The notes beneath the pieces were generated by a model. It was not told the DNA's origin and searched no databases. It saw only the letters and a list, made by a program, of their open reading frames with translations. Shown piece after piece: positions 2,608 through 26,995 of a DNA stretch of 63,785 bases. Every line of letters starts with the position of its first letter. The first letter of the stretch is position 1. A program made the position numbers and the translations under genes. Source of the stretch: a virus; the IMG/VR virus record IMGVR_UViG_3300046318_000369, positions 1 through 63,785 of that record; one strand, 5' to 3'.

Positions 2608-5600
2608 ATGGCAAAAACTTATTACTCTACAAGACCACCGTTAACTACTGCTGTAGTTACTGCTTCTGCATATACCAGTACTCCTGTTAATAGCGTAAAC
2701 ATTCCCGGAGATTATTATATCACTGTTAATACTGACGACGGTAATATTACACTTGATGCCGGAAAGTTGGTACTTGTAGATTCTCCCGAATCTGAACTTA
2801 GAAGTGATGAAATATTATTCGGTGCTAGTACTGCAACTAGCACCATAGAATTAAAATCTAGATTCATTTCAACTCTTTTGCCAAAAACAGATGCAGAATA
2901 TGATATCGGTGAAGCAGAAACTACTTGGAATAAATCATACCTCCAGGAAGGAACGTATTACAGTGAAACAAACGTAGGTAACCCGTTTGGTTTTGAATAC
3001 GATCCAGATGATGTTTACGGAGCAGAATTTTTAAATGGTGATACTGAGGCTGCAAATTTACAGCGTTCTACAGCATCTGTTGTAGTCAACGGCGGTATGG
3101 GTATCCAAAAGGATCTTAATGTCGGCGGTCATATTTACGGTAGAATTACAATAGCACAAACTTCATTAAGTGTGTTAATTACTGCAACAAATAATGACAT
3201 TGAATATTATCCGTTATTTGTAAGAAACACAGGACAACAATTTCTTTGGTTAGACGAAGAAGGTATCGAAGGCGGATTAACATATAATCCAGCACTTGGA
3301 AAAATTACTACCGATAGAATGTATGTTGCTGAATTTGATGAAGCCACTACTTCTACTGCTGCGCTAGAAGTATCAGGGGGCGCATTAATAAGACAAAATG
3401 TTCGTATTAATTCAACTGCCACTGCTACAACTAGTTCCGGTGCATTATTAGTCGAAGGCGGAGTAAGCATAGGTAAAAATGTATATGTAAAAGACGAAAC
3501 AGAAACCGATGCAGTAATTCCACACGACGATGATACAGGAACTATAGGAACTACATCATCTCAGTGGGCAGAGGCGTATGTTAATGATCTATATACAAAA
3601 GTTATTAGATCAACTACAGGAACTATTCAAATCGCTCCATCTGATCCATTAGTAGATATATACGGTGACATTAGAGTACGTGGAACAAATCCAATAGGAA
3701 CAGCACCAGTTGTTACTAATGTTTTATATGTTACTATGGACGGTGATGACACTAATGATGGCCGTGCACAAGATCCTAGCCGTGCTTGCAGAACAGTTGC
3801 AGGTGCAGTTAACAGCCCTTATTATAAACCTGGTACACAAATTAGAGTTAGCGCCGGCCGCTACTATGAAGATAATCCTATTAGATTAAAACCATATACA
3901 TCTGTAATGGGTTCTGATATTAGAACAACATTCTTAGAACCTATTAATAAAACACAAGATTTATTCCATGTTGATAGCGGATGTTATCTTGCATTTATGA
4001 ATTTTTTAAACGGCCGTTCAGGATTGCTCGAAGGTGAATATGCAAATGGGTTCAATAGAGGAGCATATTGTACAGCATTTCCACCATTAGCCGGTGATGA
4101 TCGAATAGATTTATTTCAGTCGCCTTATGTACAGAATTGCACAAATCAAAGCGGACCGTGGTTAAAAGATGGAACATTGTTTGTTCCTAATCAAACTGTA
4201 CAAATTCCTGAAGCAGTTGCCATCGGATCGTGGCCAGCAAATACTACAACCATTGTAGTAAATGTTAGTACAGGTACAATTTCTAATGGAATGGCAGTAA
4301 ATGCAGGACAACAAAATCCTGGGTTCTTTAATGCTCGTACACTTATGCTTGCTAATAAGCCATTCTTGCAAGAGCAAGTAGTTGCATATGTTGATGATGC
4401 ATTTAATAGTGGATCATTTACTTACGATTCTGTTGCATGTCAGCGAGATCTGAGTGTTATAGTAGATTCTATTGCAATGGACCTACTATACAACAGCGAC
4501 AGTGATAGTATTTTTGCTGGTCTGCAATACTGGAGTCAAGGAAATATTTCATTCCCTGCTGAAAAAGATGAATCTATAGCTGCAATAAACTATCTAAAAA
4601 CATTAGCATCTACTACTGCTACTGCCGGTGGCGGCAGTGTAACATTTGGTGACACCGTTAATACTTTGTTTGATAAGTTAACATCGATACTTACTACATC
4701 GACATCATTAATTGGCATTACTAACGAAATAGAATCAAATCCAAATGGACTTGCATCAACAACTCCTGCTGATATTAATGCATATAATGCATTGATTAAC
4801 TATAAAGCTACTATGCAATCTTCTGTAATTGGGTGGATTGATTCGCAAATTGCAGGAAATATATCTCCATTTACTAGCACGTTTACCTATAATACAGCTA
4901 CTTGTGCAAGAGATGTAGGTTATATTATCGATAGTGTAGCGTTTGACTTATTGCATGGCGGAAATAAACAAACTATTAAATCTGCAATTTATTATTACGA
5001 TTACGATGCAGATGTTACACAAATTGCAAATGAAGTTCCACAGGTTACTGCTGCATACAATTATTTAAAGAGCATTATACCGAATATTGTTAAAGGCGAA
5101 GCACTATCAACTACATATCAAACTGGAGTTGAACAACAAATTTCAGGGTTAGCAATTGCTGGAAATTATGAAGCTGATCAATTAAGTAATAGATTGGATA
5201 TAATTACAGACATTATACGTAACGGTCCGTCTGGCATTACAAAAATTCCAATGAATTTAACTGTTAATCCTAGTATGGAAGCAGAAAATGCATATTTGAT
5301 GCTAAATGCAAATAAAGCGTTTATTAAAGCAGAAGTAACTGCATATATTAATTCAACAGCAAATTCATTTGATTATTCGAGAGAATTTTGCTATAGGGAT
5401 GTAGGTATTCTTGTTGAAAATGTTGCATATGATGCAGCATTTGGCGGAAATGAAAAATCTGTAGAAAGTGGTCTTGCATATTACGACGGTGTAATTAGTA
5501 AAATCACAGGGCAAGAAACTCAAACTATATCTGCAATTGATTATTTAAATCAAATGGTACAAAGTGTTATTACCAATAGCACATGGACTAACATACTGCC

Positions 5601-8600
5601 TGTTCCAGCTTCGGTATCTGCAAGCGGAACACATTCTCAAGTTAGAAATACTGTAGTAACAGGCGGCGCTGTTGCATCTGACTCTATTAATAATTTGTTC
5701 AACATTATTACAAATATTATAGGAAATGGCCCAGATGCTGCACCTGTAAAATATGTAAGTTCAGGACCAGATGCTGCATATGTTAGTGCAGAAATTTTAC
5801 TACAGGCAAATCGTAAATTCATTCAAGAAGATACTATTAATTATATAAACAATCTAGTGCAATCATTTCCTTATAGTGAAAGGAAATGCCGTCGCGATAC
5901 TAAATTAATAGTTGATGCAATTAGCCAAGATTTAAGATGGCCAACTACAGGAATGAGTCAAAGTACTTTTGCTGGTCTTCAGTATTGGAGTCAAGGTAAT
6001 TATACTGGCGATATTGAGGCACAACTGCAACCAACTATTGATGCTGTTGCATACCTAAAAGATCTAGCAGTAAAAATTATACAAAATATTACTCCAGAAA
6101 TTGATCTAGTAAATAGATATCAATCTGTTGTAGCACAAAACACTAGCACCGAAGCAGCTGGAATAACAGAGGCAACTATAATTTCTAGTGATTTTGATAT
6201 TGTATTAGATATTCTAGGAGGTAATAAAGACGGATGGACTGATAGAATCATTCCAAATGCCGAATTAACAGTATTACCTAGTGTATTAAATGCGTATGAA
6301 TCATTGCAACTCAATAAGAATTACATGGCAGCAGAAGTCTTGGCTTATGTAGATGCAACTCATCCTGATTTTACTTTTAGCACATCTACATGTGCAAGAG
6401 ATGTTGGATATATTATTGATTCTATATGTTATGATCTAACACATAATGGAAATAGACAAGCTATTCAAGCAGGTCTTTACTATTACGGATACAATGGTAG
6501 CGGAACTATACAAGGGCAAGAATCTGCAACAGTTGATGCATACAACAGAATTTATGATATTGTTGGTGATATCTTAGTTAATTCTCCAGTGCAAATATCA
6601 ACTGGTAATACTGCAATTCAGGTATTAAATTTACCTGCTGCCTCTGCCGCAGAAGTTACTGAAGTTAGAAGAGCACTCACTACTATAACAAATATTATTA
6701 CTAGTGGGCCAAGTATTGCAGCAGCCAGAAGTCCGATTTCTTTAGTAGAATCATCTAGTACAAATATTCAACATGCATATGCAATATTGCAAGCAAATAG
6801 AGATTTTATTGCTGAAGAAATAATTGCATATGTTGATTTTACATATAATAATGGGTCTTTCAACTATAATGAAGAATTATGCTACAGAGATACTGGATTA
6901 ATCATCGATGCGGTATCTCAAGATATCATGTTAGGTGGAAATCATAAATCTATCGAAGCAGGGTTAGCATACTGGAATCAAGGATATAACTATGTAACTG
7001 GTCAGGAAAGTACAACTACTATGGCATTGAATCATGCTAGAGATGTTGCACTAAAAGTTATTGCTAATGAAACAGTAATACCGCAAACTGGAACTGTAGA
7101 AACACAAGTTATTAATACTTACTTCCAGTACGGCGGAGACTATATGCCTCAGCAATCTATTAGAAGAAATTTTAGAATCATTACTGATATAATTGAAAGA
7201 GGCCCATTGTATGCTCCTCCTGTGTACGCAGGAAGTGGGCTATTTGCCGCAGTTGGTCTAGCAGCAGACGATGTTAAACTTGCACCAAGAGTTACATCTA
7301 TACAACCATTTACATACGATGAAACATTATGTCGTAGAGATTCTGGATATATTATCGATGGTATATATTATGATTCTGCACTTGGCACAAATTACAATGC
7401 AGTTACATCTGGAAATGCGTATCAACGAGGTGTATCTTCGGTAGTTATTAACAGTGAATTGCCACAGACTAAATCTGCAATAGAGTATTTAAAAACTAAT
7501 TCTGCAATTTTAATGTCAACTAGTACAGTAGCCGTTACTCGTGCAAGTGCATCCTATGATGAAATTATAAATATTCTCGACGGTGATTTACCATCGGCAA
7601 TAATATTTACAAATCCAACCGGAGGAAGTGCTAGTAAGATTGCAGCAAAAGACCAGTTAGTTGCAAACAAAGCATTTTTGCAAGCAGAAACTGTTGCATG
7701 GATTAATTCACAAATTAATAGTAATACATCTCCTTTTGTTGGATTTAATTACAATGACGAAACATGTGCACGAGATGTCGGATTTATTGTTGATGCATTG
7801 TGTTACGATATATTATATGGAGGAAATAGTGCAACTAGAGTATGTGCACAAGCATATTTTACACAATCAAGTTCATCATTAATTCCGGGGGAAACTGCAC
7901 AATCTGTTGCTGCATTTCAACATATGTCAGTTACTGCTCAAAATGTAATTCAAGGAATTTCTGTTACTCCTACAACAGGAACAAATGTTGTTCAGATTAT
8001 TTCAGGTAGCGTAGCATCATCGCCGGAAGTTACTATTTTAGAAAATCTAGTAACTATTATTACAAATGTTATCACAGCTGGAAATCTATCAGGGTTGCCA
8101 TCTGTTGTAAATCCTTCAATTACATGGGCCTCTTCGACTATACAGTCAGCAGTAAATTCATTAAGTTCAGGAAAATCAACATTAATTGATAATACCATAA
8201 CTTATATTAACACACAATTTACAAACACATATATTATAGGGTTAAGCACATCTACTGTTGGATTTGGATACAACTCTACGTTATATTTTGGTGATACATT
8301 AGTTTATCCTAAACAAGATATTGCTGTCCCGGATGAATGGCAACAACGTAGAGTAGATCCTATCGGGTCGATGGGAGGAAGTTTAGTAGACGGATCTGTT
8401 GTTAGCAGTCGTTCACCAATACAATCGTTTGTTTATGATGCGTTTACTCAACTTCCTCAGGGCGGAAGAGGTGTTCATATTATTAACGACGGATACGCAC
8501 AGTTAGTTTCTGTGTTTACAATTTTCTGTTCTACTGGTGTAGAAGTAGAATCTGGTGGAATTGCATCTATTGTTAATAGTAACGCTAACTTTGGCAATAT

Positions 8601-10158
8601 TTGTTTACAAGCAAAAGGTTACGGAACACGTAAATTTAGCGGGCATGTATACAATCCTATAAACAAGGCATATCCAGAAAGCCCAGATCCTGCAATTGCA
8701 ACGTCATTTCCTGAAAGTGAATATTTTGACCAATATTATCCAACAGGTTTTTGGCCAAATAATGCACAAGTAAGAGTATTTTTGCCTGACACAGAAGATA
8801 GACCCCACATTTCTTTAGTTATGGAGATAGTTCCTCCTGAAACTATTACTGATTATACAGGTGCAAAAGTTCCTCAAATAAACGAGCAAGGATTTCCTGG
8901 ATTTTTAAATGCAGTTCCTACTACCTCTACATTAACAACTGGTACAATTACAATTACTGGAATAGACACAACAGGAATAGCAGTCGGTAATGCTGTATAT
9001 GTTAGGGATCTTAATAATAGTTTTACAGGAACCGACGGAGTATATTATTGTGCGACAGGCACAGTAGTTTCAAATGTTGGATATCAAAGTGTTACATTGA
9101 GCAAAGCGTTAACATCCGGCGGATTTGATCCTGAAGACCCAACAAATTCTGATTATTTTAATTTATATTTCTGCGGAAATGCATACTATACAGTATTAAG
9201 TAGCGAAGTTGGTAACAGTCCTACTTATAACAGGGCAGGTGGAGTTATTTCTTTAGGAACTAATGTTCTTTCAACGGCATCAACTGGGCTTTCTACCAGT
9301 CAAGTTGCAGCTCATATTAGCTCTATACAACGATTAAAAACAGTTGTAGGCCAGATTATTAATAATGAAACTGTATTAGTTACTACTGGAAATACATCAA
9401 TACAAACTATCAATTTATTGGTTACAGGTGGCGGCGAAGCAGAAACATTTATTGATCAAAGATTTGATGATATGATTAATATTATCGGGGCTTTGACTTT
9501 AACAGCAGCAGAAGCAGTAGTTAAGCCGTCACAAAGAACCAAAGAAGGACCGACTGTACAAGGTGCCGGAAGTGCAATTACACTAATTAAATCTAATATA
9601 GAATTCCTAGCCGATGAGATTAGTGCATATGTTCAACAGACATTTGGATATGTTCCTTATGTTGACTACGATGATTCGAAATGTCAAAGAGATTCTAAAA
9701 TTATATTAGAAAGACTAATATACGACATTGAAACAGGCGGAAGATATAATTCTGTCATGGCAGGACTAAGTTATTGGAACAGAGCAGGAACATATCACAT
9801 TGTACAGTTAGGTGAAAATGTAACTAGAACTGATTTGTTCCCTGATGGTGCAACTGTTAATTTTTATCAACGTTCATACATTAGCGCATCTGGCTATGTA
9901 TTTGAATATGTAGGAGCAGGAACTAACTACGGTGCATTACCTCAACGAGGTGTTGCAGACCCAGTGCAAGGCAAAGAGGTTGTTATGCTGGATAGTGGTA
10001 AAGTATTCTTCACATCAACGGACCAAAACGGTGATTTCCGAATTGGTCCAGGATTAGTAATTAGCCAGGCAACTGGTGTTCTAAGTGGTAGAACATTTAC
10101 TAAATCGTTATTTGCTAATATGACTCCGTTTATATTAGCTATTGAGGCCGGAGGCTAA
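2608..10158 (+). CDS. Giant repeat-bearing virion structural protein (fibre/baseplate-associated)
   Basis: A 2516-residue protein. Residues about 150-300 hold three diverged copies of the GALLVEGGVSIGKNVYV cassette shared with the next genes. Residues about 370-480 resemble the start of a pectin-lyase-like parallel beta-helix (VTMDGDDTNDGRAQDPSRAC). From about residue 600 on there are nine repeats of roughly 160 residues, each centred on an aromatic-Y-x(4)-C-x-R-D motif followed by I-I-D-x-x-x-x-D and G-G-N. The C-terminus (FTSTDQNGDFRIGPG, then ATGVLSG) is typical of large structural proteins of T4-like cyanophages. No enzymatic motif is evident. It is the first gene of a co-directional block. 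A role as a fibre or peripheral baseplate protein is inferred from size, repetition and neighbours. Confidence 0.75.
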   Translation: MAKTYYSTRPPLTTAVVTASAYTSTPVNSVNIPGDYYITVNTDDGNITLDAGKLVLVDSPESELRSDEILFGASTATSTIELKSRFISTLLPKTDAEYDIGEAETTWNKSYLQEGTYYSETNVGNPFGFEYDPDDVYGAEFLNGDTEAANLQRSTASVVVNGGMGIQKDLNVGGHIYGRITIAQTSLSVLITATNNDIEYYPLFVRNTGQQFLWLDEEGIEGGLTYNPALGKITTDRMYVAEFDEATTSTAALEVSGGALIRQNVRINSTATATTSSGALLVEGGVSIGKNVYVKDETETDAVIPHDDDTGTIGTTSSQWAEAYVNDLYTKVIRSTTGTIQIAPSDPLVDIYGDIRVRGTNPIGTAPVVTNVLYVTMDGDDTNDGRAQDPSRACRTVAGAVNSPYYKPGTQIRVSAGRYYEDNPIRLKPYTSVMGSDIRTTFLEPINKTQDLFHVDSGCYLAFMNFLNGRSGLLEGEYANGFNRGAYCTAFPPLAGDDRIDLFQSPYVQNCTNQSGPWLKDGTLFVPNQTVQIPEAVAIGSWPANTTTIVVNVSTGTISNGMAVNAGQQNPGFFNARTLMLANKPFLQEQVVAYVDDAFNSGSFTYDSVACQRDLSVIVDSIAMDLLYNSDSDSIFAGLQYWSQGNISFPAEKDESIAAINYLKTLASTTATAGGGSVTFGDTVNTLFDKLTSILTTSTSLIGITNEIESNPNGLASTTPADINAYNALINYKATMQSSVIGWIDSQIAGNISPFTSTFTYNTATCARDVGYIIDSVAFDLLHGGNKQTIKSAIYYYDYDADVTQIANEVPQVTAAYNYLKSIIPNIVKGEALSTTYQTGVEQQISGLAIAGNYEADQLSNRLDIITDIIRNGPSGITKIPMNLTVNPSMEAENAYLMLNANKAFIKAEVTAYINSTANSFDYSREFCYRDVGILVENVAYDAAFGGNEKSVESGLAYYDGVISKITGQETQTISAIDYLNQMVQSVITNSTWTNILPVPASVSASGTHSQVRNTVVTGGAVASDSINNLFNIITNIIGNGPDAAPVKYVSSGPDAAYVSAEILLQANRKFIQEDTINYINNLVQSFPYSERKCRRDTKLIVDAISQDLRWPTTGMSQSTFAGLQYWSQGNYTGDIEAQLQPTIDAVAYLKDLAVKIIQNITPEIDLVNRYQSVVAQNTSTEAAGITEATIISSDFDIVLDILGGNKDGWTDRIIPNAELTVLPSVLNAYESLQLNKNYMAAEVLAYVDATHPDFTFSTSTCARDVGYIIDSICYDLTHNGNRQAIQAGLYYYGYNGSGTIQGQESATVDAYNRIYDIVGDILVNSPVQISTGNTAIQVLNLPAASAAEVTEVRRALTTITNIITSGPSIAAARSPISLVESSSTNIQHAYAILQANRDFIAEEIIAYVDFTYNNGSFNYNEELCYRDTGLIIDAVSQDIMLGGNHKSIEAGLAYWNQGYNYVTGQESTTTMALNHARDVALKVIANETVIPQTGTVETQVINTYFQYGGDYMPQQSIRRNFRIITDIIERGPLYAPPVYAGSGLFAAVGLAADDVKLAPRVTSIQPFTYDETLCRRDSGYIIDGIYYDSALGTNYNAVTSGNAYQRGVSSVVINSELPQTKSAIEYLKTNSAILMSTSTVAVTRASASYDEIINILDGDLPSAIIFTNPTGGSASKIAAKDQLVANKAFLQAETVAWINSQINSNTSPFVGFNYNDETCARDVGFIVDALCYDILYGGNSATRVCAQAYFTQSSSSLIPGETAQSVAAFQHMSVTAQNVIQGISVTPTTGTNVVQIISGSVASSPEVTILENLVTIITNVITAGNLSGLPSVVNPSITWASSTIQSAVNSLSSGKSTLIDNTITYINTQFTNTYIIGLSTSTVGFGYNSTLYFGDTLVYPKQDIAVPDEWQQRRVDPIGSMGGSLVDGSVVSSRSPIQSFVYDAFTQLPQGGRGVHIINDGYAQLVSVFTIFCSTGVEVESGGIASIVNSNANFGNICLQAKGYGTRKFSGHVYNPINKAYPESPDPAIATSFPESEYFDQYYPTGFWPNNAQVRVFLPDTEDRPHISLVMEIVPPETITDYTGAKVPQINEQGFPGFLNAVPTTSTLTTGTITITGIDTTGIAVGNAVYVRDLNNSFTGTDGVYYCATGTVVSNVGYQSVTLSKALTSGGFDPEDPTNSDYFNLYFCGNAYYTVLSSEVGNSPTYNRAGGVISLGTNVLSTASTGLSTSQVAAHISSIQRLKTVVGQIINNETVLVTTGNTSIQTINLLVTGGGEAETFIDQRFDDMINIIGALTLTAAEAVVKPSQRTKEGPTVQGAGSAITLIKSNIEFLADEISAYVQQTFGYVPYVDYDDSKCQRDSKIILERLIYDIETGGRYNSVMAGLSYWNRAGTYHIVQLGENVTRTDLFPDGATVNFYQRSYISASGYVFEYVGAGTNYGALPQRGVADPVQGKEVVMLDSGKVFFTSTDQNGDFRIGPGLVISQATGVLSGRTFTKSLFANMTPFILAIEAGG
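4411..9786 (+). repeat. Nine degenerate protein-level repeats with C-x-R-D signature
   Basis: Copies begin near 4411, 4882, 5368, 5866, 6370, 6858, 7310, 7743 and 9661. The first eight have a period of about 430-500 bp; a non-repeat insert of about 1.5 kb precedes the ninth. Each encodes F-x-Y-x(4)-C-x-R-D followed by a helix-like stretch and Y-Y/Y-W-x-x-G. They are diverged at the nucleotide level, so this is an old expansion. Confidence 0.8.
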
Positions 10159-10169
10159 AAGGAAAAATT

Positions 10170-10565
10170 ATGGCATTAATTCCATTAAACACGTTTAAAA
10201 CAAAAACAAAGTTGTTGACGGGATACTCAGCAACAACTGCTACTATTACATCGTATGTAGCACCTATTGGTGTTACTTCGATTATCCTAATGGCACAGGT
10301 ATCTAATTTAACAACTGAAACACAGTATGTAAATTTTATACACTACAGAAAACGTCCTGTATTATCTGATGCGCAAGGTAATGGATATCAAGCACCTAAT
10401 ACCGAAACATATATGGTTAAAGATTTTGCTATTCCTGCCGGTGATGCAGGAACGGTACTAAGTGGAAAACTTATTATTGAAAGTCTTGATAGTGTTAGAG
10501 CATATACCAGTAACTCAGGAACATGTCATTTAACATTAAGCATTTTAGAAACTGCTAACAATTAA
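10170..10565 (+). CDS. Small putative virion protein
   Basis: A 131-residue protein, rich in Thr, Val and Ile, with alternating hydrophobic residues suggesting a single beta-sandwich (QVSNLTTETQYVNFIHYRK in the middle, a KLIIESLDSVRAY strand near the end). No enzymatic motif, signal peptide or membrane segment. It lies 11 bases after the giant 2608 gene with an AAAGGA ribosome site and is followed 11 bases later by the next fibre gene, so it is co-transcribed with them. Small proteins of this type sit among tail-fibre genes in T4-like marine phages; a trimerisation, capping or baseplate-decoration role is only a guess. Confidence 0.6.
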   Translation: MALIPLNTFKTKTKLLTGYSATTATITSYVAPIGVTSIILMAQVSNLTTETQYVNFIHYRKRPVLSDAQGNGYQAPNTETYMVKDFAIPAGDAGTVLSGKLIIESLDSVRAYTSNSGTCHLTLSILETANN

Positions 10566-10576
10566 TCGAGGGTATT

Positions 10577-12580
10577 ATGCCAAGTTTATTAAGCGGATCA
10601 ACCTTACGCCGTGGCGGCAGCGGAGAATTTATCGATTTACCTGGGGCACAGCCACAGTTGCCTGCTACGGATACTACTTTAACTGGTTTCACATTAGTAA
10701 CCGATAATGTCCTAAGAACTTCATATAGATCTAGTTTAGGATTTATAGAATTTAATTCGGCTACAATGTATAGTTCATTACCCAGTGGGACTATAAAAAT
10801 TCTTGCCACAGGTACAGGTATTATATCGACTGGAACAACTACAGGATTATTAGTTGTAAATGGTGATACCGGTATCGGCGGTACAATGAACATAGGTAAA
10901 GACATTGTAGTCAATGGTATTACTATTGGTCGCGGTTACGAAGGTGTAAATAATCTTGTTTTTAGGGGAACAGCATCTCCACAAATTGATAATTATGAAA
11001 ACGGACAAGAAAGTATATCGATAGGATATGATTCATTGCTAGGATTATCATCATCCTATAAAAATTTAGCTATAGGTAGATACGCATTAAGCACTGGTAC
11101 ATTATTATCAAATAATATTGCGATTGGAGATAGTGCATTAAAATCAGTAGGAGTGAAAAAGACTTCTGTAATATCTAACATTACAGGAATTTCCTTAGCT
11201 AATCCAGTAATTGTTACGTCTCCTAGCCACGGTCTTACTAGCGGAACATATGTTAGTATTTTTAATGTTAATGGAACAACACAGTTAAACAGCGGGACTT
11301 ACTATATTAGAGTATATTCTTCGTCAACGTTCGGGCTGTATAATGATAATAATTTTTCTACACCAATTAACGGAGCAGGATTTTCAAACTATATAAGCGG
11401 CGGAACAGTTGAAGTTACAACATTTAGAGATAGTAATGTTTCTATTGGAGTAGATTCTGGATCTAAATTAATAGATGGACAACAAAACGTTTTTATTGGC
11501 CACCAAGCTGCAAATCTGTTAACAACTGGTTCTTATAATATTATTATTGGCCCATTAACTGGGCAGTATTTATATACAGGGTCAGGAATAATCAGTATAG
11601 GCGGCGACAATATTGTTGACGGTAAAGACGATCAAGTTAATATAGGTAGTGTTTTTTATTACGACGGAGAAGGATATTCGTATATTAGTGCAGAAACTAC
11701 TGTAGGGCTTGGTACCAGAGCATCTGTGATTTCTCCAGGACCATTTACATCAGCTAGTACAGTTACAGGCGGATTAGTAGTAGTCGGCGGATCATTTGTA
11801 TGGGATAATTTAATAGTAGGTGATACATTTAATATACTAGGGACTGGTTCTAATACAATTGCAGGATCTCTAATTCCAACAACATCCACAGTATCATTAG
11901 GAAGTGCAAGCAATCCATTTGGAAGTTTATACTTAAAAGGAACAACATTATATTTAAGCACAGTTACACTTAAATCATCATCTGCAAATAGTTTTAGTGT
12001 AGAAAGTCCTGCCGGATATGTGACTCAAACAGTTGGAAACCTACATCTAAATTCTGGGTTAAATTCTACAAGTTCGAGTAATGGAAGTTTACTTGTTGAT
12101 GGCGGCGTTGGTATTTTAGGAAATGTAAATATTAATGGTGAATTAAATGTTTTAGGATCGGATGACATTGAACTTAGTCCAGTCGGAGCAGTAGTTCGTA
12201 TCAAACCTACAGGTGGTGGCACCGTTGATATTAGACCGAATGTTACAGGAAGCATTGATAATGTATCAATAGGGCTAGCAGATCCATCTCATGCAAATTT
12301 TGCAACTGCTACTGTCGTAGGAAATGGTAATTCTACATCAACTCAATCTGGTGCGTTAATTGTTGCAGGTGGTGTCGGAATAAGTGGTGATATATATAGT
12401 AACACCGGTGTCCCTGATGAAAATAATCTATTATACACTCCCCGAGTATCTGTTAGCGCCGGAGTTCCACCTATTAATCCTAGATTAGGAGATGTTTGGA
12501 TCGATTCGACTATTCCTGCGTATTTGCAATATATAAAAGATGGGTCCAATAAATTTTGGATACAAATAGGTTCCGTTTAA
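10577..12580 (+). CDS. Fibre protein with YadA-like head repeats and GGVGIG cassettes
   Basis: A 667-residue putative tail fibre. Residues about 75-110 carry a first cassette (LLVVNGDTGIGGTMNIG). Residues about 150-190 contain short repeats of the form N-(L/I)-A-I-G-x-x-A-L, the left-handed coiled repeat of YadA/Hia-type trimeric adhesin heads. Three more cassettes follow, one degenerate (GGLVVVGG) and two clearer (GSLLVDGGVGILG, GALIVAGGVGISG). The C-terminus (PRLGDVWIDST, then KFWIQIG) looks like a compact cap domain. It is preceded by a GAGGGT ribosome site and tightly spaced with its neighbours. The combination points to a trimeric, non-enzymatic fibre; receptor specificity cannot be deduced. 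Confidence 0.72.
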   Translation: MPSLLSGSTLRRGGSGEFIDLPGAQPQLPATDTTLTGFTLVTDNVLRTSYRSSLGFIEFNSATMYSSLPSGTIKILATGTGIISTGTTTGLLVVNGDTGIGGTMNIGKDIVVNGITIGRGYEGVNNLVFRGTASPQIDNYENGQESISIGYDSLLGLSSSYKNLAIGRYALSTGTLLSNNIAIGDSALKSVGVKKTSVISNITGISLANPVIVTSPSHGLTSGTYVSIFNVNGTTQLNSGTYYIRVYSSSTFGLYNDNNFSTPINGAGFSNYISGGTVEVTTFRDSNVSIGVDSGSKLIDGQQNVFIGHQAANLLTTGSYNIIIGPLTGQYLYTGSGIISIGGDNIVDGKDDQVNIGSVFYYDGEGYSYISAETTVGLGTRASVISPGPFTSASTVTGGLVVVGGSFVWDNLIVGDTFNILGTGSNTIAGSLIPTTSTVSLGSASNPFGSLYLKGTTLYLSTVTLKSSSANSFSVESPAGYVTQTVGNLHLNSGLNSTSSSNGSLLVDGGVGILGNVNINGELNVLGSDDIELSPVGAVVRIKPTGGGTVDIRPNVTGSIDNVSIGLADPSHANFATATVVGNGNSTSTQSGALIVAGGVGISGDIYSNTGVPDENNLLYTPRVSVSAGVPPINPRLGDVWIDSTIPAYLQYIKDGSNKFWIQIGSV

Positions 12581-12601
12581 TTTTATAAGAGAAATAATTT
12601 T

Positions 12602-13453
12602 ATGGCAGATTTAAATTTTCCAACAAATCCTAACCAAGGAGATACACATGTTGTGGGTCTAAACACGTATACATGGAATGGATACGCTTGGATAGTTTCA
12701 AGGGCAACGATTACAGCTACTAGTATAACATCTATAGGATCGGTAATTATTACCGATGTTACAGATTCTACAGGTACTAGTACTGGTGCTTTACAGGTCG
12801 CAGGTGGCGCAACAATAGGCGGGGATTTATGGGTCGGCGGCGTATTACATGCTGCTGGAATGCCTGTGCTTACTACAGCTAGCTTCGTTGACGGTGTTGT
12901 TGACGGTACCGATATAGATATTGTTGATATAGGTGATAGTGTATTACGTTTTAATAATATTTCTACTCTAGAATCAGTAACTGCTAGAGGAAATTCCACA
13001 ACTAATTCTATTATAGTATCCAATAATGTAGAATCTACTTCAACTGATTCAGGGGCATTAGTTATTGCTGGAGGTTTAGGAGTAGGAAAACGTATAACCG
13101 CCGAATCAATACGTATTACTAATGCAGCAATAAATTCAACACAAACTTTGGTAAATACCACAGCAAGTACAATAGTAGATTCTTTTAGTTTAACTGAATT
13201 TAGATCTGCAAAATATCTAATTCAAATTGATGAAGGAATAGGTGCCGGTGCAGATTTTGAGCTAATAGAAATATTACTAATAGCTGATAACGATGGAGGA
13301 GTCTGGGCAACTGAGTATGGAGTAGTTACATCAAATGGTGATTTAGGAATATTCGCGGCGGAAATATCTAGTAACATGGTTAATTTATATTTTACTGCTC
13401 ATATAGAAACTAATAAAACTGTTAAAGTGTTGCGAACAGGAATGGTTATATAA
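12602..13453 (+). CDS. Fibre protein with two cassettes and the RSAKY C-terminal domain
   Basis: A 283-residue protein. The N-terminus (NFPTNPNQGDTHVVGLNTYTWNG, abbreviated; residues 5-27) resembles the short P-x-x-G-x-x-Y-x-W-x-G attachment module seen in phage fibre proteins. Two copies of the cassette follow (GALQVAGGATIGGDLWVGG and GALVIAGGLGVG). The last about 90 residues begin at F-R-S-A-K-Y and have the pattern E-I-L-L-I, T-E-Y-G, L-G-x-F-x-A. This domain also ends the next gene. No catalytic site is evident. It probably forms a beta-rich C-terminal tip or capping domain; that role is inferred. Confidence 0.68.
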   Translation: MADLNFPTNPNQGDTHVVGLNTYTWNGYAWIVSRATITATSITSIGSVIITDVTDSTGTSTGALQVAGGATIGGDLWVGGVLHAAGMPVLTTASFVDGVVDGTDIDIVDIGDSVLRFNNISTLESVTARGNSTTNSIIVSNNVESTSTDSGALVIAGGLGVGKRITAESIRITNAAINSTQTLVNTTASTIVDSFSLTEFRSAKYLIQIDEGIGAGADFELIEILLIADNDGGVWATEYGVVTSNGDLGIFAAEISSNMVNLYFTAHIETNKTVKVLRTGMVI

Positions 13454-13467
13454 GGAAAATTGATTAA

Positions 13468-15921
13468 ATGTCACTGATATCAATAAAACGCGACTTTTTT
13501 GTTAAAGCCGGCATTGCTGTGCTAGGAACCAATGAAGTTAATTCTTCCACTGGAAGTACCTCTTCACTACAAGTAAATGGTGGAGCCTCGATTGCTAAGA
13601 ATATCATTGTTGGTACAAGTGCAACTATACATGGTGTATTTACTGCGCTCGGTGATTCATATTTTAATGTTACTACTGCTTCTCAACTAACCGTAACAGG
13701 CAGTTCATCCTTAGAAGATTTAATAGTTGAAAATAGTACAGCAACACAACTAACAGTTACAGGAAATACACTCCTTGGGCCATTAACTGCTTCGATTATT
13801 ACATCGACTATGCTTACAGTTAGTGGGCAATCAACATTAGGAGAAATAACTGCCGGTATTACTACTGCTACATCATTAACTGTTGGATCAATAACAGCAG
13901 ATAATATTGTTTCTATAATTACAACAAGTAATTCAACATCCACTATTACGGGTGCATTACAAGTTGCAGGTGGTGCAGGTATTGGTGGCAATTTGTATGT
14001 AGGCGGGATCTTAAATGTTATAGATACCATAAACGGTACTTCTCGCTCTGCAAATAATCTCGAAGGCGGAGCAACTGGAAGTATTCCATATCAAACAAAT
14101 ATAGGAACAACTGCATTTATTCCTATAGGTACTTCTGGATTTTTGTTCCAATCTAATGGTACTACAGCAACATGGATATCAACTGGTTCTTTGGTAGCAG
14201 GTATTGCATCTACTGCATCTAATATTAATGGTGGTTCTCAATATCAAATTCCTTACCAAACAAACAGCGGATCAACTGCATTTGATGAAGGGCTAACCTA
14301 TAATTACATTTCTGATACCTTACAAACAGTAAATGCTATATTCTCCAGTACATCAACTGCTGGGACAACAACTACAGGAGCATTAGTTGTTGCAGGTGGA
14401 GTAGGAATTGGGAATAATTTAGTAGTAGGCGGAAGTTCGACTATTACTAACAATTTAATCTTGGGTGGTAATTTATCAGTTAATGGCGGAAATATTACGT
14501 CAGGTGCTAGTACATTTAATTTGCTAGCATCGAATATAACCACTGCAAATATCTTAAATTCTTCTACTGCAATTACTATTGGTGAATTAACTGGATATAC
14601 AGAAGTTCGCAACCAATTTACTGTAAGTAATGTTACGGCTGCGTCATCTACTTTAACAGGTGCATTACAAGTTCGCGGAGGTATCGGAATAGGTGGCAGT
14701 ATATTTGTAGGAAATACAGCAAGTATTCTAAATACCGCTGCAAGTACCGGTTCTTTACAAAGTAATGCATTATATGTAGCAGGTGGAGTTGGAATAGCAA
14801 AGTCATTATATGTTACAGGGGAAGCAGTATTTTCTAATAATGTTGTATTCAGTGGAACTACTACATATGTTTATAGCACTGTTACAGTTTATACAGATAA
14901 TCTATTAGAATTACACGCTCCTAGTAATAATACATGGTCCGTTGACGATGGCAAAGATATAGGAATTGTTTTTAACTATTATAATAATAGCGATCAAAAT
15001 GGATTTCTTGGATTAGCAAATGATACAAAATATTTAGAATGGTATAACAGTGGAGTAGAACATTCAACTTCTAGTATTTTCACCAGTGCAACATACGGAA
15101 CATTTAAAACTGGTAGCATAAAACTACAAAATACAACTACATCTATAGGAACTAATACCGGTGCATTAACTGTAGTCGGCGGAGTAGGAATTGGTGAAAA
15201 TTTATATGTAGGTGGGTTGACTAGTTTTAATGGTCTTTCTAAAATTACAAATATTTCAGAATCAACTTCAACTAATACTGGTGCATTAACTGTAGTCGGC
15301 GGAGTAGGAATTGGTGGAAATTTATATGTAGGTGGAAATGCTGCTGCCACTGAATTAATAATTACAGGTAGATCTACTCTAGGAGAGATTAATGCAAGTA
15401 TAACAACAGCTACTGCACTAACAGTAACAGGTATTGCATCTTTTACCGATTCAACAAATGCAGTAGCAACAAATGACGGCGCAATCAAGGTATCAGGCGG
15501 TGTCGGGGTTGCTCAAGATGTATACGTTGGTGGCCTAATAACCGCAGGTGCAACAGCATCGGCAACTACAGCTAATGTAGTATCGGGTGTATTTTACAAT
15601 AATACATTGCTGGCTAGTTATACCAGTAATCCTATTGCAACTTTATCTGAACAGACACTAGATATTTTTTCAGGAGCTAGTTATCGTTCTGCCAAATATT
15701 TCTGTCAGGTAGTGGCAGGCACTAGGATTCAAGTTTCTGAAATATCAGTATTTCATGATAATACAAGTGCATATATTAGTGAATACGGAGTTTCTTCAAA
15801 TACAGGCTTTCTAGGGAATTTTAATGCAACGTATACAAGTGGAAATATTGCTGTTACATGGACTGCAAATACTACAACATCGATGGTTATTAAATTAACA
15901 AGGTTAACAATAACTGCATAA
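13468..15921 (+). CDS. Fibre protein with eight GGVGIG cassettes and RSAKY tip
   Basis: An 817-residue protein built mainly from recurring units. I count eight cassettes, including two nearly identical copies of GALTVVGGVGIG (about 15163 and 15283). Between them are short N-x-T-x-A-x-x-L-T-V-x-G repeats and a module with Y-Q-I-P-Y-Q-T-N-S-G that reappears in the 16019 gene. The C-terminal domain starts at Y-R-S-A-K-Y and parallels that of the preceding protein. AAGGA precedes the start by nine bases. It appears to be a long fibre shaft with a beta-rich tip. The shared modules suggest the fibre genes exchange or duplicate segments. Confidence 0.7.
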   Translation: MSLISIKRDFFVKAGIAVLGTNEVNSSTGSTSSLQVNGGASIAKNIIVGTSATIHGVFTALGDSYFNVTTASQLTVTGSSSLEDLIVENSTATQLTVTGNTLLGPLTASIITSTMLTVSGQSTLGEITAGITTATSLTVGSITADNIVSIITTSNSTSTITGALQVAGGAGIGGNLYVGGILNVIDTINGTSRSANNLEGGATGSIPYQTNIGTTAFIPIGTSGFLFQSNGTTATWISTGSLVAGIASTASNINGGSQYQIPYQTNSGSTAFDEGLTYNYISDTLQTVNAIFSSTSTAGTTTTGALVVAGGVGIGNNLVVGGSSTITNNLILGGNLSVNGGNITSGASTFNLLASNITTANILNSSTAITIGELTGYTEVRNQFTVSNVTAASSTLTGALQVRGGIGIGGSIFVGNTASILNTAASTGSLQSNALYVAGGVGIAKSLYVTGEAVFSNNVVFSGTTTYVYSTVTVYTDNLLELHAPSNNTWSVDDGKDIGIVFNYYNNSDQNGFLGLANDTKYLEWYNSGVEHSTSSIFTSATYGTFKTGSIKLQNTTTSIGTNTGALTVVGGVGIGENLYVGGLTSFNGLSKITNISESTSTNTGALTVVGGVGIGGNLYVGGNAAATELIITGRSTLGEINASITTATALTVTGIASFTDSTNAVATNDGAIKVSGGVGVAQDVYVGGLITAGATASATTANVVSGVFYNNTLLASYTSNPIATLSEQTLDIFSGASYRSAKYFCQVVAGTRIQVSEISVFHDNTSAYISEYGVSSNTGFLGNFNATYTSGNIAVTWTANTTTSMVIKLTRLTITA

Positions 15922-15973
15922 TTAATGCAGTTTATTAAATAAAATCCGTATAGTAAGGCTTTTATTTTAATAC

Positions 15974-15981
15974 AATAAATA
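15974..15981 (+). promoter_or_regulatory. Late promoter (AATAAATA) before the S74 fibre gene
   Basis: Seven of eight match to TATAAATA in the 97-base gap before 16019. Predicted start near 15987, with a GGAAAGGGA ribosome site in the leader. A modest hairpin over the preceding stop codon (AACTGCAT / ATGCAGTT, 15912-15932) lacks a T-run. Confidence 0.78.
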
Positions 15982-16018
15982 ATTAAAAGTAACGGCTGTT
16001 ACGTGGAAAGGGATACTA

Positions 16019-19000
16019 ATGGCAAATGTAAATGATTTTAGGGTTAAAAATGGCTTGTCGGTTACGACTACTGCAACAATCGAAGGCACTAACACTGCAA
16101 CCTCAACTGCTACAGGTGCATTAGTTGTTGTAGGTGGCGTAGGAATTGGTAATAGTTTATATGTAGGTGCAAATACCACATTAGGTACCGATACATTAAA
16201 TTCATTAACTGTTAATGCAAAAACTACTATTGAAGGAATAACAGTAGGCACTGGTCCAGACACAGCAAATAACGATACTAACACAGTAGTTGGAAGAAAT
16301 TCACTGTCAGCGAATACTTCGGGAGAATCAGATACTGCCTTAGGAAATAATGCTCTATTAAGAAATACTACTGGTAATAACAATACCGCTGTTGGCGACG
16401 GAGCAATGTACTCTAACCGTAGTGGTTCTTCAAATACCACTTTAGGATCTGCGTCTCTACTGCTCAATACTACTGGTAGTAATAATACAGCAGTAGGAGT
16501 AAGTGCTCTTCAAAATTCTACCGGCTGGAGCAATACCGCAGTAGGAACAAGTGCTCTATATCAAACTACTGGATCTGATAATACAGCAATCGGCGAAGGA
16601 GCTGGCGGCTCTATTACTACTGGAAACCGCAACGTTGTTATTGGTAGGAACAACGGTTCTACTATCGCTACTTTAAGCAATAGAATAATTATCAGTGACG
16701 GTGACGGTAATATTAGAATTAGTGTTAATAATACCGGCACTGTTACTATACCTGTTGGATTACTAGTTAACGACATAACTGTTGGAAAAGGTAACTCGGA
16801 TGTTGAATCAAATACTGCACTTGGTATAAGTGCATTACTGAATAATTCTAATGATGGTTTTGAAAATACAGCAATAGGGTATCAAGCATTAAAATTCAAT
16901 ACAAGCGGATATGATAATACTGCATTAGGGTACAATAGTCTTAGAAATAATACTATAGGTACCGTTAATATTGCTATAGGTGGTAATAGTCTTCTAACAA
17001 ATACCACTGGAACTGAAAATATTGCTATAGGCTATAATAGCCTTACTGACAGCACCGGTACTACTAAAAGTATTGCTATAGGTCATTTTAGTCTTGGTTC
17101 ATCTAGAAAATCTGATAATACAGCAATCGGCTATTATTCGATGGGATCCGGAACAGTAACTGGTGACTGGAACGTAGCTGTTGGAAATTATACCTTACGG
17201 AATAATACTGGCGGGTGGTTTAATACTGCAATAGGAAATAACAGTCTTAAAAGTAATACTGTAGGTTATTCAAATGTTGCAATAGGTGTAGACAGTCTTT
17301 CATCAAATGATAACGGTACTAATAATACAGCAGTAGGTGTTCGTGCTTTGTCTAGCAATACTCAAGGAACGTCAAATATTGCTGTAGGATATGAATCATT
17401 AAGATATAATAAAACCGGTGATTATAACATAGGTATAGGTTTTCTAACTCTTAATGCAAATACTTCCGGTTGGATGAACGTTTCTCTCGGACCTTATAGC
17501 TTATATTATAATAAAACAGGCACCAAGAACATAGCAATAGGTCCTTATGCTTTGGAATCTAATGAGACTGGCTATTTTAATACTGCATTAGGATACGGTG
17601 CCGGTAGAGCCATTACTTCAGGATCAAACAATGTAGTTATTGGTAGCAATAATGGAAGTAGTATTTCCACATTAAGCAATAGAATCATTATTAGTGATGG
17701 CTCAGGTAATATTAGAATTAGTGTTAATGACACAGGAGCTGTTTCTATTCCTGCTTCAAATGCATCAACATCAGTTTCAACGGGTGCACTGGTTGTTGCA
17801 GGTGGTGTAGGTATTGGTGGAAATTTATACGTAGGTGGCTCAATTTTTGGTGCTACTAGTGTATCAGGAGTTATTACAACAGCAACTAATTTAGGTGGCG
17901 GAGCTCAATACCAGATACCGTATCAAACAGAATCGGGTGCAACATCTTTTGAATCAGATTTAACATATAATTATACATCTAATAGATTAGAAACTGTAAA
18001 TGCAAAATTAACTGGAACTACTACTTCAACATCTACAACAACAGGCGCATTGATTGTTGCAGGTGGAGTAGGAATTGGTAATAGTTTATATGTAGGTGGA
18101 AATACCACAGTAGGTATCAATACATCGCATTCACTAACTGTTAATGCAAAAACTACCATACAAGGATTAACAGTAGGTGCTGGTGCAAACAATGATGATA
18201 CAAATTCTGCATTTGGAGTTGATGCTTTATCTTCTAATCAAGGATTCTGGAATACAGCAATAGGATTCTATGCTCTTAAATCTAGTGTTTCGAGTAGAGG
18301 GCATACCGCAGTAGGAAGTTTTGCATTAACCGCTAATGACCTGGGCGAAGACAATACCGCAATAGGATATAATTCCTTAGGATCTAATACCAGTGGATTT
18401 AGCAATGCAGCAGTAGGCACTGATAGTTTAGCATCAAATGAGTCAGGTGGAAGAAACGTTGCCCTAGGATATAAATCACTAAGATCTCTGTTAGATGGTT
18501 ATCAAAATACTGCCATAGGTTATGGTGCTCTGTTTGCATCAACTAGTTCATCTCATAATATTGCACTAGGATACAACGCAGGCAATGCTATTACCACAGG
18601 ATCATACAACGTTGTTATTGGTAGCAATAACGGAAGTAGTATTTCCACATTAAGCAATAGAATCATTATTAGTGATGGCTCAGGTAATATTAGAATTAGT
18701 GTTAATGATACTGGTACTGTTACTATTTCTACTACAACTAATGCAACTTCTACTACTACAGGTGCATTAGTTGTAACAGGTGGCGTTGGAATCGGTGGTG
18801 ATTTATATGTAGGTAAAAATACCACACTAGGTATCAATACATCGCATTCACTGACTGTTAATGCTAAAACAACGCTCGAAGGTGCAACTTTAGGAGTTGG
18901 ACCAGGAACAGGGTTTGGCAATTTAGTTTTTGGTATAGAGGCATTTGAAAACAATACTACAGGATATTCAAATATTGCTATCGGTTATAGATCGTTAAGA

Positions 19001-21553
19001 GACAACGGCACCGGCCGAGAGAACGTTGCAGTAGGTTACGAAAATTTATTATATAACACTACCGGTGTTCATAATACCGCACTTGGCCATCAAAGCATGA
19101 TGCTAAACGAAACCGGCGAACAAAATTCAGCAGTTGGTTACGCAAGTTTATATTATAATACTTCTGGTGCTAGAAATGCAGCATTTGGATTTGCTGCTTT
19201 AGAAGCAAACGGTACTGGAAATAATAATTCTGCATTTGGTTACTACGCATTAAGGAGTGTAAGTGGTTCTAATAATACCGGTATAGGTTATAATTCAGGT
19301 AATTTAATTACCACCGGATCAAAAAACGTTGTTATTGGTAGCAATAGCGGAAGTTCTATAGCAGAATTAAGCAATAGAATTATTATCAGTGACGGTGACG
19401 GTAATATTAGAATTAGTGTTAATGACACAGGAGTTGTATCTATACCATCAACTTCAACATCAACCTCGACTACTACAGGTGCATTAGTTGTAACAGGTGG
19501 CGTCGGAATTGGCAATAATTTATATGTGGGTAAAAATACCACACTAGGTATCAATACATCGCATTTATTAACTGTTAATGCAAAAACTACTATTGAAGGA
19601 ATAACAGTAGGTACAGGAGGAGGAAATCAGACTACTAACACAGCATTTGGTCGAAATGCGTTAGTGTCGAACTCTACTTGGACCTATGCAACAGATAATG
19701 TTGCAATAGGATACAATGCACTTACTACCAATACTAACGGAAGTTCGAATGTAGCAGTAGGTAGTCACACGCTTGAATCTAATATTGACGGTGATTGGAA
19801 TACAGGATTAGGTTATTATGCGCTCAATGCTAATAGTGATGGAGAGGAAAATACTGCTGTAGGCAGTTATTCGTTACAAGCAAATATATCTGGTACTTAT
19901 AATACAGCTTTAGGTAGTCGTGCTCTTCAAACAAACAATAGTGGTATGGAAAATACCGCAGTAGGATTTAGTGCATTAGATAAAAATACCGACGGATTTT
20001 ATAATACCGCAGTTGGAGGCAACGCTCTTTCTACTAACACTACAGGAACTTACAACACAGCAGTAGGGCGAGAAGCACTTGCACTATCTACTGGGTCTTA
20101 TAATATTGCTATTGGAGCCGGCGCTGGCCTATTTATGAGTCAAGGATCATACAACGTTGTTATTGGTAGCAATGACGGAAGTAGTATTTCCACATTAAGC
20201 AATAGAATTATTATCAGTGATGGTGCTGGTACCATTAGAATTAGTGTTAATGACACAGGAGTTGTATCTATACCATCAACAACTACTGCAACTTCTACTA
20301 CTACAGGTGCATTAGTTGTAACAGGTGGTACTGGAATCGGTGGTGATTTATATGTGGGTAAAAATACCACACTAGGTATCAATACATCGCATTCACTGAC
20401 TGTTAATGCAAAAACAACAATAGAAGGGTTAACAGTAGGTACCGGTTCGGGTAACATTACATCTAATGTAGTATTTGGACTCAGTGCATTTACAACAAAT
20501 ATTGACGGTGCAGATAACATTGCAATAGGTGAATCTGCATTAGAGTTGAATGAGTACGGAACAGACAATATAGCAATGGGGTCTTTTGCGTTATGCTCTA
20601 ATACAGATGGATATTATAATATAGCAATTGGTAGCTCGGCGTTAAGTTCTAGTGGAATTGCACATGACAATATAGCAATAGGTAGACGTGCTTTATCTAT
20701 AAATGATTCAGGAAACAACAATTTAGCAATCGGCAATGATACATTAAATGATAATGATACAGGAAGTAATAACATTGCTATCGGTTATCAAGCGTTAAAC
20801 AGATTGTTCAGCGGAAACAATAATATTGGCATAGGACATTTTGCGGCCTATCTATTAACTTCGGGTTCAAACAACGTAGTCATTGGCGGAAACGACGGAA
20901 GTTCGATAGCTGGATTAAGCAATAGAATAATTATCAGTGACGGTGCTGGAAATATTAGAATTAGTGTTAATAATACCGGCACTGTTACTATTTCTACTAC
21001 AACTAATGCAACTTCCACTGCAACTGGTGCATTGGTTGTTGCAGGTGGTGTAGGTATTGGTGGTGATTTATATGTAGGAGGTACCATAAATTTTGCCGGA
21101 ACCATTACTGGCATTTCTACAGATATTACCATAAGCGATGATACAGAATCGACTACACTTTATCCGGTTATGGTAAATGCCGCAGGTTCTGCACAACCAC
21201 TAAAAGTTACAACACCCAAGTTATACTTTAATGCATCAACTGGAGATTTATCGGCTACTAACTTTAATTCATTATCTGATATAACATTAAAGGAAAATAT
21301 AGAACCTATATTAAATTCTTTTGATATATTAGAAAAAATAAACGTGGTCCAATTTAATTGGAAAGATACTGGAAAACGTGCATACGGAGTAATAGCACAA
21401 GAAATAGAAAAAATATTACCAGAAATTGTGCATAGCACAGATGATAATTTAAAAAGTGTATCTTATACACAGCTAATGGCATTCATGATCAATGTAATAA
21501 AAGACCAACAATCAGAAATTGCAAACATTAAAAAAATTCTAGGAAATAAATAG
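16019..21553 (+). CDS. Giant trimeric-adhesin-like tail fibre with S74 intramolecular chaperone
   Basis: An 1844-residue putative fibre. It contains six long modules, each made of a GALVVAGGVGIG cassette, an N-A-K-T-T-I-E-G link, many short N-T-A-(I/V)-G-x-x-(A/S)-L repeats of the YadA head type, and a closing NNVVIGSNNGSSISTLSNR then RISVND segment. The last 92 residues (from S1753) match the peptidase S74 / endosialidase-type chaperone: S-D-x-x-x-K (S1753, K1758), F-N-W-K, Y-G-V-I-A-Q-E-I, and a final coiled-coil. In characterised members this domain directs trimerisation and then cuts itself off just before the Ser. The conserved Ser-Lys pair predicts a processed shaft of about 1752 residues. 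No depolymerase motif is seen. Confidence 0.85.
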   Translation: MANVNDFRVKNGLSVTTTATIEGTNTATSTATGALVVVGGVGIGNSLYVGANTTLGTDTLNSLTVNAKTTIEGITVGTGPDTANNDTNTVVGRNSLSANTSGESDTALGNNALLRNTTGNNNTAVGDGAMYSNRSGSSNTTLGSASLLLNTTGSNNTAVGVSALQNSTGWSNTAVGTSALYQTTGSDNTAIGEGAGGSITTGNRNVVIGRNNGSTIATLSNRIIISDGDGNIRISVNNTGTVTIPVGLLVNDITVGKGNSDVESNTALGISALLNNSNDGFENTAIGYQALKFNTSGYDNTALGYNSLRNNTIGTVNIAIGGNSLLTNTTGTENIAIGYNSLTDSTGTTKSIAIGHFSLGSSRKSDNTAIGYYSMGSGTVTGDWNVAVGNYTLRNNTGGWFNTAIGNNSLKSNTVGYSNVAIGVDSLSSNDNGTNNTAVGVRALSSNTQGTSNIAVGYESLRYNKTGDYNIGIGFLTLNANTSGWMNVSLGPYSLYYNKTGTKNIAIGPYALESNETGYFNTALGYGAGRAITSGSNNVVIGSNNGSSISTLSNRIIISDGSGNIRISVNDTGAVSIPASNASTSVSTGALVVAGGVGIGGNLYVGGSIFGATSVSGVITTATNLGGGAQYQIPYQTESGATSFESDLTYNYTSNRLETVNAKLTGTTTSTSTTTGALIVAGGVGIGNSLYVGGNTTVGINTSHSLTVNAKTTIQGLTVGAGANNDDTNSAFGVDALSSNQGFWNTAIGFYALKSSVSSRGHTAVGSFALTANDLGEDNTAIGYNSLGSNTSGFSNAAVGTDSLASNESGGRNVALGYKSLRSLLDGYQNTAIGYGALFASTSSSHNIALGYNAGNAITTGSYNVVIGSNNGSSISTLSNRIIISDGSGNIRISVNDTGTVTISTTTNATSTTTGALVVTGGVGIGGDLYVGKNTTLGINTSHSLTVNAKTTLEGATLGVGPGTGFGNLVFGIEAFENNTTGYSNIAIGYRSLRDNGTGRENVAVGYENLLYNTTGVHNTALGHQSMMLNETGEQNSAVGYASLYYNTSGARNAAFGFAALEANGTGNNNSAFGYYALRSVSGSNNTGIGYNSGNLITTGSKNVVIGSNSGSSIAELSNRIIISDGDGNIRISVNDTGVVSIPSTSTSTSTTTGALVVTGGVGIGNNLYVGKNTTLGINTSHLLTVNAKTTIEGITVGTGGGNQTTNTAFGRNALVSNSTWTYATDNVAIGYNALTTNTNGSSNVAVGSHTLESNIDGDWNTGLGYYALNANSDGEENTAVGSYSLQANISGTYNTALGSRALQTNNSGMENTAVGFSALDKNTDGFYNTAVGGNALSTNTTGTYNTAVGREALALSTGSYNIAIGAGAGLFMSQGSYNVVIGSNDGSSISTLSNRIIISDGAGTIRISVNDTGVVSIPSTTTATSTTTGALVVTGGTGIGGDLYVGKNTTLGINTSHSLTVNAKTTIEGLTVGTGSGNITSNVVFGLSAFTTNIDGADNIAIGESALELNEYGTDNIAMGSFALCSNTDGYYNIAIGSSALSSSGIAHDNIAIGRRALSINDSGNNNLAIGNDTLNDNDTGSNNIAIGYQALNRLFSGNNNIGIGHFAAYLLTSGSNNVVIGGNDGSSIAGLSNRIIISDGAGNIRISVNNTGTVTISTTTNATSTATGALVVAGGVGIGGDLYVGGTINFAGTITGISTDITISDDTESTTLYPVMVNAAGSAQPLKVTTPKLYFNASTGDLSATNFNSLSDITLKENIEPILNSFDILEKINVVQFNWKDTGKRAYGVIAQEIEKILPEIVHSTDDNLKSVSYTQLMAFMINVIKDQQSEIANIKKILGNK
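16085..21085 (+). repeat. Six tandem fibre modules with near-identical DNA segments
   Basis: The module-closing segment recurs near 16680, 17680, 18660, 19380, 20205 and 20925. About 90 bases from 17641 and from 18619 differ by a single base over most of their length. The segment coding for the start of the N-A-K-T-T link recurs almost unchanged near 18830, 19535 and 20361. High nucleotide identity implies recent duplication or ongoing gene conversion. Confidence 0.85.
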
Positions 21554-22590: not shown

Positions 22591-22594
22591 TCAT

Positions 22595-25457: not shown

Positions 25458-25460
25458 AGA

Positions 25461-26993: not shown

Positions 26994-26995
26994 CT

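Follow-up and report, generated by a model that had tools for sequence, protein, structure and literature searches.

A short cassette is used 24 times in five neighbouring fibre genes of one virus. We judge it to be a beta-repeat of trimeric virus fibres that is absent from the catalogues (Pfam, NCBIfam) and often marks the joints between modules. The cassette is common in environmental viruses and is not special to this phage. On balance, it is probably a short trimeric-fibre repeat, a likely gp12-type helix segment that links modules and also serves as a recombination joint.

The window, i.e. the whole stretch of DNA that was analysed, is one virus record of 63,785 bases. Its first gene encodes a T4-like major head protein (phrog_138), for which the nearest phage record is Sinorhizobium phage Phosso, a 469 kb phage (71.5%), and the window is therefore most likely a piece of a large T4-like phage. 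Glycan/modification genes adjoin the fibre genes at 21613-27586 and 39659-41894 (FkbM methyltransferase, radical SAM with SPASM, glycosyltransferase families 25 and 1, DUF6445 and another methyltransferase). Three successive large genes of 1311, 1302 and 1303 residues occupy 27627-39401, the first with 21 FG-GAP_2 repeats according to Pfam, and their near-equal lengths suggest a putative tandem triplication.

To count the cassettes, an ungapped position-specific scan of the five proteins was iterated until convergence. Its threshold was the best score reached in 50 sets of shuffled proteins and came to 5.6-8.4 bits in the final two rounds. The initial annotation had listed about 24 copies, distributed 3/4/2/8/7 over the five genes, and this proved exact: the scan finds 3 (2608), 4 (10577), 2 (12602), 8 (13468) and 7 (16019), named here after the start of each gene. 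The 24 copies score 34.8 to 64.8 bits, values that are partly self-trained as the seeds were drawn from the same proteins, and no sub-threshold candidates are left. According to six-frame scans, the cassettes are confined to these five ORFs within the window. The actual sequence is looser than the formula first proposed for it: among 37 columns a single one, a glycine, is invariant, and a strict regular expression finds few copies, so that it was replaced by the profile scan.

The five fibre genes and the features within them lie on the plus strand. The first gene (2608..10158) encodes a fibre/structural protein of 2516 residues, recognised by the profile scan and PHROG tail-fibre families, with three cassettes close to the N-terminus at 3058..3138 (44.6 bits), 3343..3423 (35.1 bits) and 3424..3504 (50.4 bits). 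The same protein contains about ten copies of another motif, C-x-R-D-x-G-x-I-I-D-x-x-x-Y-D-L-x-x-G-G-N. The second gene (10577..12580, 667 residues), also fibre/structural by profile scan and PHROG comparison, has cassettes at 10829..10909 (41.2 bits), 11753..11833 (40.4 bits), 12068..12148 (39.3 bits) and 12335..12415 (43.6 bits). A Phycobilisome match in the 2608 protein and an E1_FCCH near-hit in the 10577 protein, both from Pfam, were judged spurious or marginal.

The two following genes both end in a C-terminal RSAKY domain, as seen from the profile scan and the predicted structures. The fibre connector-like gene 12602 (12602..13453, 283 residues) has two cassettes, at 12770..12850 (54.7 bits) and 13037..13117 (34.8 bits). 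The fibre gene 13468 (13468..15921, 817 residues) has eight: 13546..13626 (35.3 bits), 13936..14016 (60.2 bits), 14362..14442 (52.6 bits), 14644..14724 (46.2 bits), 14749..14829 (46.8 bits), 15145..15225 (53.5 bits), 15265..15345 (61.5 bits) and 15463..15543 (40.6 bits). The last gene, 16019 (16019..21553, 1844 residues), is a long fibre gene by profile scan and Pfam, with YadA-head-like repeats and a C-terminal Peptidase_S74 intramolecular chaperone (21275..21430) that passes the Pfam cut-off with 62 bits against 22 (E 4.5e-18). Its seven cassettes are at 16100..16180 (58.4 bits), 17768..17848 (61.8 bits), 18029..18109 (60.8 bits), 18746..18826 (64.8 bits), 19463..19543 (63.6 bits), 20291..20371 (61.6 bits) and 21011..21091 (64.1 bits). 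A whole-gene search of viral contigs with 16019 found no relative.

In the cassette profile, an S/T-rich lead of about 8-10 residues precedes G-A-L-x-V-x-G-G-V-G-I-G-G-N-L-Y-V-G-G, and the part after the lead can be read as four hexads of the type hydrophobic-x-hydrophobic-x-Gly-Gly (hxhxGG). Among 262 non-redundant proteins the hydrophobic residues fall in columns 13/15, 19/21, 25/27 and, more weakly, 31/33 of the 37-residue profile, which is a six-residue period. The distances between copies follow the same step: 68 of the 107 distances of 26-49 residues equal 4 modulo 6, where 18 are expected, an excess that should not be read as a probability, as each distance was counted once per protein and some proteins are related or from one contig. 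The main peaks are at 34 and 40 residues, the next at 46 and 28, and the effect fades beyond 50 residues.

Such simple G/S/T/V-rich fibre sequence could in principle converge through its composition, without common descent. The cassette is indeed of low complexity, and a filtered tblastn search of phage records with one extended 57-residue cassette gave no match, for which the low-complexity filter is probably responsible. However, the cassette scores far exceed those of shuffles of the same proteins, the 27-residue motif is ordered and its glycines are about 97-99% conserved across many viral proteins, and codon sharing between copies within genes is 0.544 vs 0.393 predicted by codon usage. 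We regard convergence as largely refuted and highly improbable.

AlphaFold2, run on single chains, is confident only for the RSAKY domains, at 13118..13450 in 12602, with a pLDDT of 84-97 across most of the domain, and at 15598..15918 in 13468. A structure search that covered the C-terminal domains of the 12602 and 13468 models matched both to 1qex, the former at Z 14.1 (108 residues, rmsd 1.9) and the latter at Z 12.5 (105 residues, rmsd 2.1). Both RSAKY domains are predicted to share the beta-sandwich fold of T4 gp9 residues 169-284. In the 12602 model the alignment to gp9 is confined to residues 173-283 and leaves the baseplate-binding N-terminal domain of gp9 outside the match; the N-termini and cassettes of 12602 and 13468 are without a match. 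It is to this C-terminal part of gp9 that the T4 long tail fibres attach (PMC3004832), and because of the predicted fold the 12602 and 13468 proteins may chain fibre segments.

For the cassettes themselves, the comparison we favour is with T4 gp12, whose beta-helix makes a turn about every six residues around a hydrophobic interior (PMC3004832). This type of narrow triple beta-helix, found also in the stalk of the K1F endosialidase, belongs to trimeric phage fibres, and the hexads and six-residue steps of the cassette are alike in sequence periodicity. It is by this periodicity that the two are set side by side: the cassette profile, 13468 and the 12602 family, used as sequence queries against solved structures (PDB), returned nothing meaningful, and gp12 is without a well-defined sequence repeat, whereas the cassette has one. 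A trimeric context is suggested by the Peptidase_S74 chaperone, a sequence match to a long-tail-fibre distal subunit (6f45) and the gp9-like C-terminal domains. From the hexads, the spacing ruler, this context and the turn length reported for gp12, we infer a narrow, gp12-like trimeric beta-helix, in which the cassette looks like a rigid rod joint. The trimeric beta-prism that the initial annotation had considered is plausible in that the hexads and the ruler suit a narrow triple beta-helix. Against this stand the single-chain AlphaFold2 models, which over the cassettes are of low confidence and have few strands, and which neither bear out nor contradict a fold shared by all copies.

Six-residue periodicity would also suit a hexapeptide beta-helix, and the cassette could instead be a coil of a single-chain left-handed beta-roll or beta-helix that continues the YadA-like head repeats, rather than part of an intertwined three-chain helix. 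In 16019 the cassettes do adjoin YadA-like repeats directly, and one copy weakly matches the Pfam left-handed beta-helix model (E 0.15). However, many cassettes adjoin modules other than YadA, and the classical hexapeptide signature is missing from the motif. Furthermore AlphaFold2, which is able to build single-chain beta-rolls, gives no confident cassette fold, with few strands and a confidence of 41-75 in 12602 and about 30-55 in 13468, both from shallow alignments (27 and 21 sequences). We therefore consider the single-chain fold unlikely.

The profile HMM suggested with the initial annotation was built from the 24 copies and recovers at least 918 copies in 195 ORFs on 123 loci, a count that includes the 24 of the window and in which most loci had been chosen by the cassette DNA pattern. 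In total there are at least 1,497 copies in at least 333 proteins on at least 160 loci, and the highest number in a single protein is 26 among the loci scanned with the HMM. At least 120 stretches of viral contigs match the cassette DNA pattern. Since the pattern-fetched loci were selected for the motif, these counts show breadth, not frequency. Where loci were fetched with nothing but the head protein, 11 of 80 carry the cassette; many of these loci are short contigs.

The cassette is also found in the cyanophages P-RSM6 and S-SSM5 and in ten genome contigs, mostly from Bacteroidota. The Bacteroidota proteins come from Spirosoma and Saprospiraceae (L245, L246, L251, L243, L248, L249), and one of them, a 957-residue protein of Spirosoma luteum DSM 19990 (L245:3408-6281), has a signal-peptide-like N-terminus. 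Weak matches to the Peptidase_G2 autoproteolysis domain are seen in two of the five scanned bacterial cassette proteins (L243 and L244). In one locus, the protein in the position of 13468 (L217:11038-15816) has 25 cassettes in 1593 residues, compared with eight in the window.

No Pfam family matches the cassette above the curated cut-off, the best E-values being 0.15 and 0.3 for one copy each, and in NCBIfam nothing comes near a cut-off in the five proteins. A text search of papers for the motif letters found none. PHROGs 697, 3018 and 8215 contain the cassette inside whole-protein profiles: at E <= 1, single cassettes match PHROG 697 in 19 of 24 cases (best 4.3e-07) and PHROG 3018 in 17 of 24 (best 6e-06). 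These families are, however, named for the whole proteins (structural, head decoration, baseplate wedge initiator) and do not describe the repeat as a unit.

The proposal that the cassette is an interchangeable connector is supported: modules unrelated to one another are linked by it, both in the window and in many other viruses, and orthologues carry different numbers of copies, e.g. 2 to 5 in most full-length relatives of 10577 and 1 to 3 in relatives of 12602. The S/T-rich lead and the four hexads would most likely form a single segment of a narrow, T4 gp12-type triple-stranded beta-helix, joining larger modules end to end (YadA-like head repeats, QIPYQT units, gp9-like tips). Any two modules bounded by such a segment would fit one another, and because the copies also share DNA, the cassettes would serve as joints for recombination that adds, removes or exchanges modules. 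In this reading the segment would be trimeric, the mechanism would be homologous recombination, and there may be a benefit for host range.

Within the window, one case is found in 13468, where the inner 60 nt of cassette 6 (15145..15225) are identical to cassette 7 (15265..15345) at 58 positions, while the flanks are similar only at chance level. From its sequence, this pair is best read as a cassette-sized copying event. The suggestion of recombination among the five fibre genes is not supported as a recent process, as codon sharing between copies of different genes is only slightly above what codon usage predicts (0.444 vs 0.385).

The homology around the copies differs between genes. In 16019 most copies, including the fourth to sixth (18746..18826, 19463..19543, 20291..20371), belong to a supermodule that recurs every 717-978 nt, and the homology extends about 100 nt upstream and about 150 nt downstream of the cassette; in the other genes it ends at the edges of the cassette of about 27 residues. 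The supermodules speak for an ordinary fibre repeat, spread by the duplication of larger units, found at module borders because it is ubiquitous, and with recombination independent of it. The identity of cassettes 6 and 7 in 13468, limited to the cassette, speaks against this. We hold the ordinary repeat to be possible, at clearly lower probability than a joint that takes part in recombination, and the comparison of relatives bears on both.

We analysed 1,763 indels in 1,346 protein pairs, with random placement at kept indel lengths as control. In-phase indels from cassette to cassette number 71 of the 1,763, compared with 13 ± 3.5 expected (5.5-fold), and 181 indels have both ends in cassettes (89 expected), numbers to which alignment may contribute by dragging gap ends toward conserved cassettes. 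The excess is not what an ordinary repeat predicts. However, two thirds of the indels (1,177 of 1,763, 1,235 by chance) have neither end in a cassette, as an ordinary repeat would have it. Among relatives with the same gene order as the window, one (L206) carries a further cassette unit in its 12602 gene, 53 residues long and in phase, at the first cassette (12770..12850), and five (L137, L127, L140, L208, L043) are without a block between the second (11753..11833) and fourth (12335..12415) cassettes of 10577; this block is not exactly in phase, because the window has about ten extra residues at one border.

Two events in other viruses are located on cassettes, again in disagreement with recombination independent of them. 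The fibre of L008 is of the L003 type (93.3% over 3.56 kb) up to the end of a cassette and thereafter of the L027 type (85.9% vs 44.1%). Between -198 and -30, L008 agrees with L003 at 19 of the 20 informative sites; from -15 on it always agrees with L027, and one site, at -18, is unassigned. The crossover thus falls within a 15-nt interval, and since the informative sites change there, the switch is placed where the cassette core (-89 to -8) ends. In the second case, L039 is distinguished from L087 by exactly one cassette unit of 34 residues, in DNA that is 97-99% identical.

Mapping of breakpoints, as the initial annotation had suggested, gave a divided result. A first high-identity set was small (5/11) and a second set was then collected. 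In one family, fetched by its fibre protein, 11 of 29 breakpoints are at cassettes compared with 1.7 ± 1.3 expected; in a second (F87) the number is 6 of 31 compared with 2.5 ± 1.2, not clearly enriched, and many F87 breakpoints fall at other conserved fibre repeats, e.g. LDVDG or LNITG, which an ordinary repeat would also lead one to expect. In these counts the events of one family go back to common ancestors and cannot be treated as independent, related events enter repeatedly despite deduplication, the L003 and L087 family seeds were originally fetched by the cassette pattern, and all relatives are metagenomic contigs, in which any single junction may be a chimera. Taken as a recombination site, the cassette is upheld by the particular events (L008, L039/L087 and the pair in 13468) and the in-phase indels, but not as an exclusive hotspot, given how many indels lie elsewhere.

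Changes in fibres through small units have a precedent. Tetart et al. are said to have reported in 1996 that a small adhesin domain is duplicated in T4 (as cited in PMC12906663). That would likewise be a change in the copy number of a small repeated unit in fibre evolution; however, the T4 unit sits in the tail fibre adhesin, while the cassette sits along the rod between modules. According to part of a study on mosaic receptor-binding proteins, protein fragments of phage tail fibres and tail spikes are still being shuffled (Smug et al. 2023, PMC10684548). The module shuffling is as here, but that part of the study names no common joint repeat.

How fibre genes trade modules while the trimer stays continuous and folded is an open question in the evolution of phage host range. 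Tentatively, and with more doubt than belief, the cassette could be a portable, uncatalogued trimeric-fibre joint with a six-residue register, used in unrelated viruses and some Bacteroidota surface proteins, whose conserved DNA makes it a preferred crossover point. If this is true, fibres could swap or add modules without breaking the rod. A shared repeat at module borders, with a length ruler of six residues, would answer the question in a concrete and testable way, and it would be a landmark for dividing fibre proteins into modules in metagenomic data. Even as an ordinary rod repeat and no more, the cassette is an abundant family that Pfam and NCBIfam lack.
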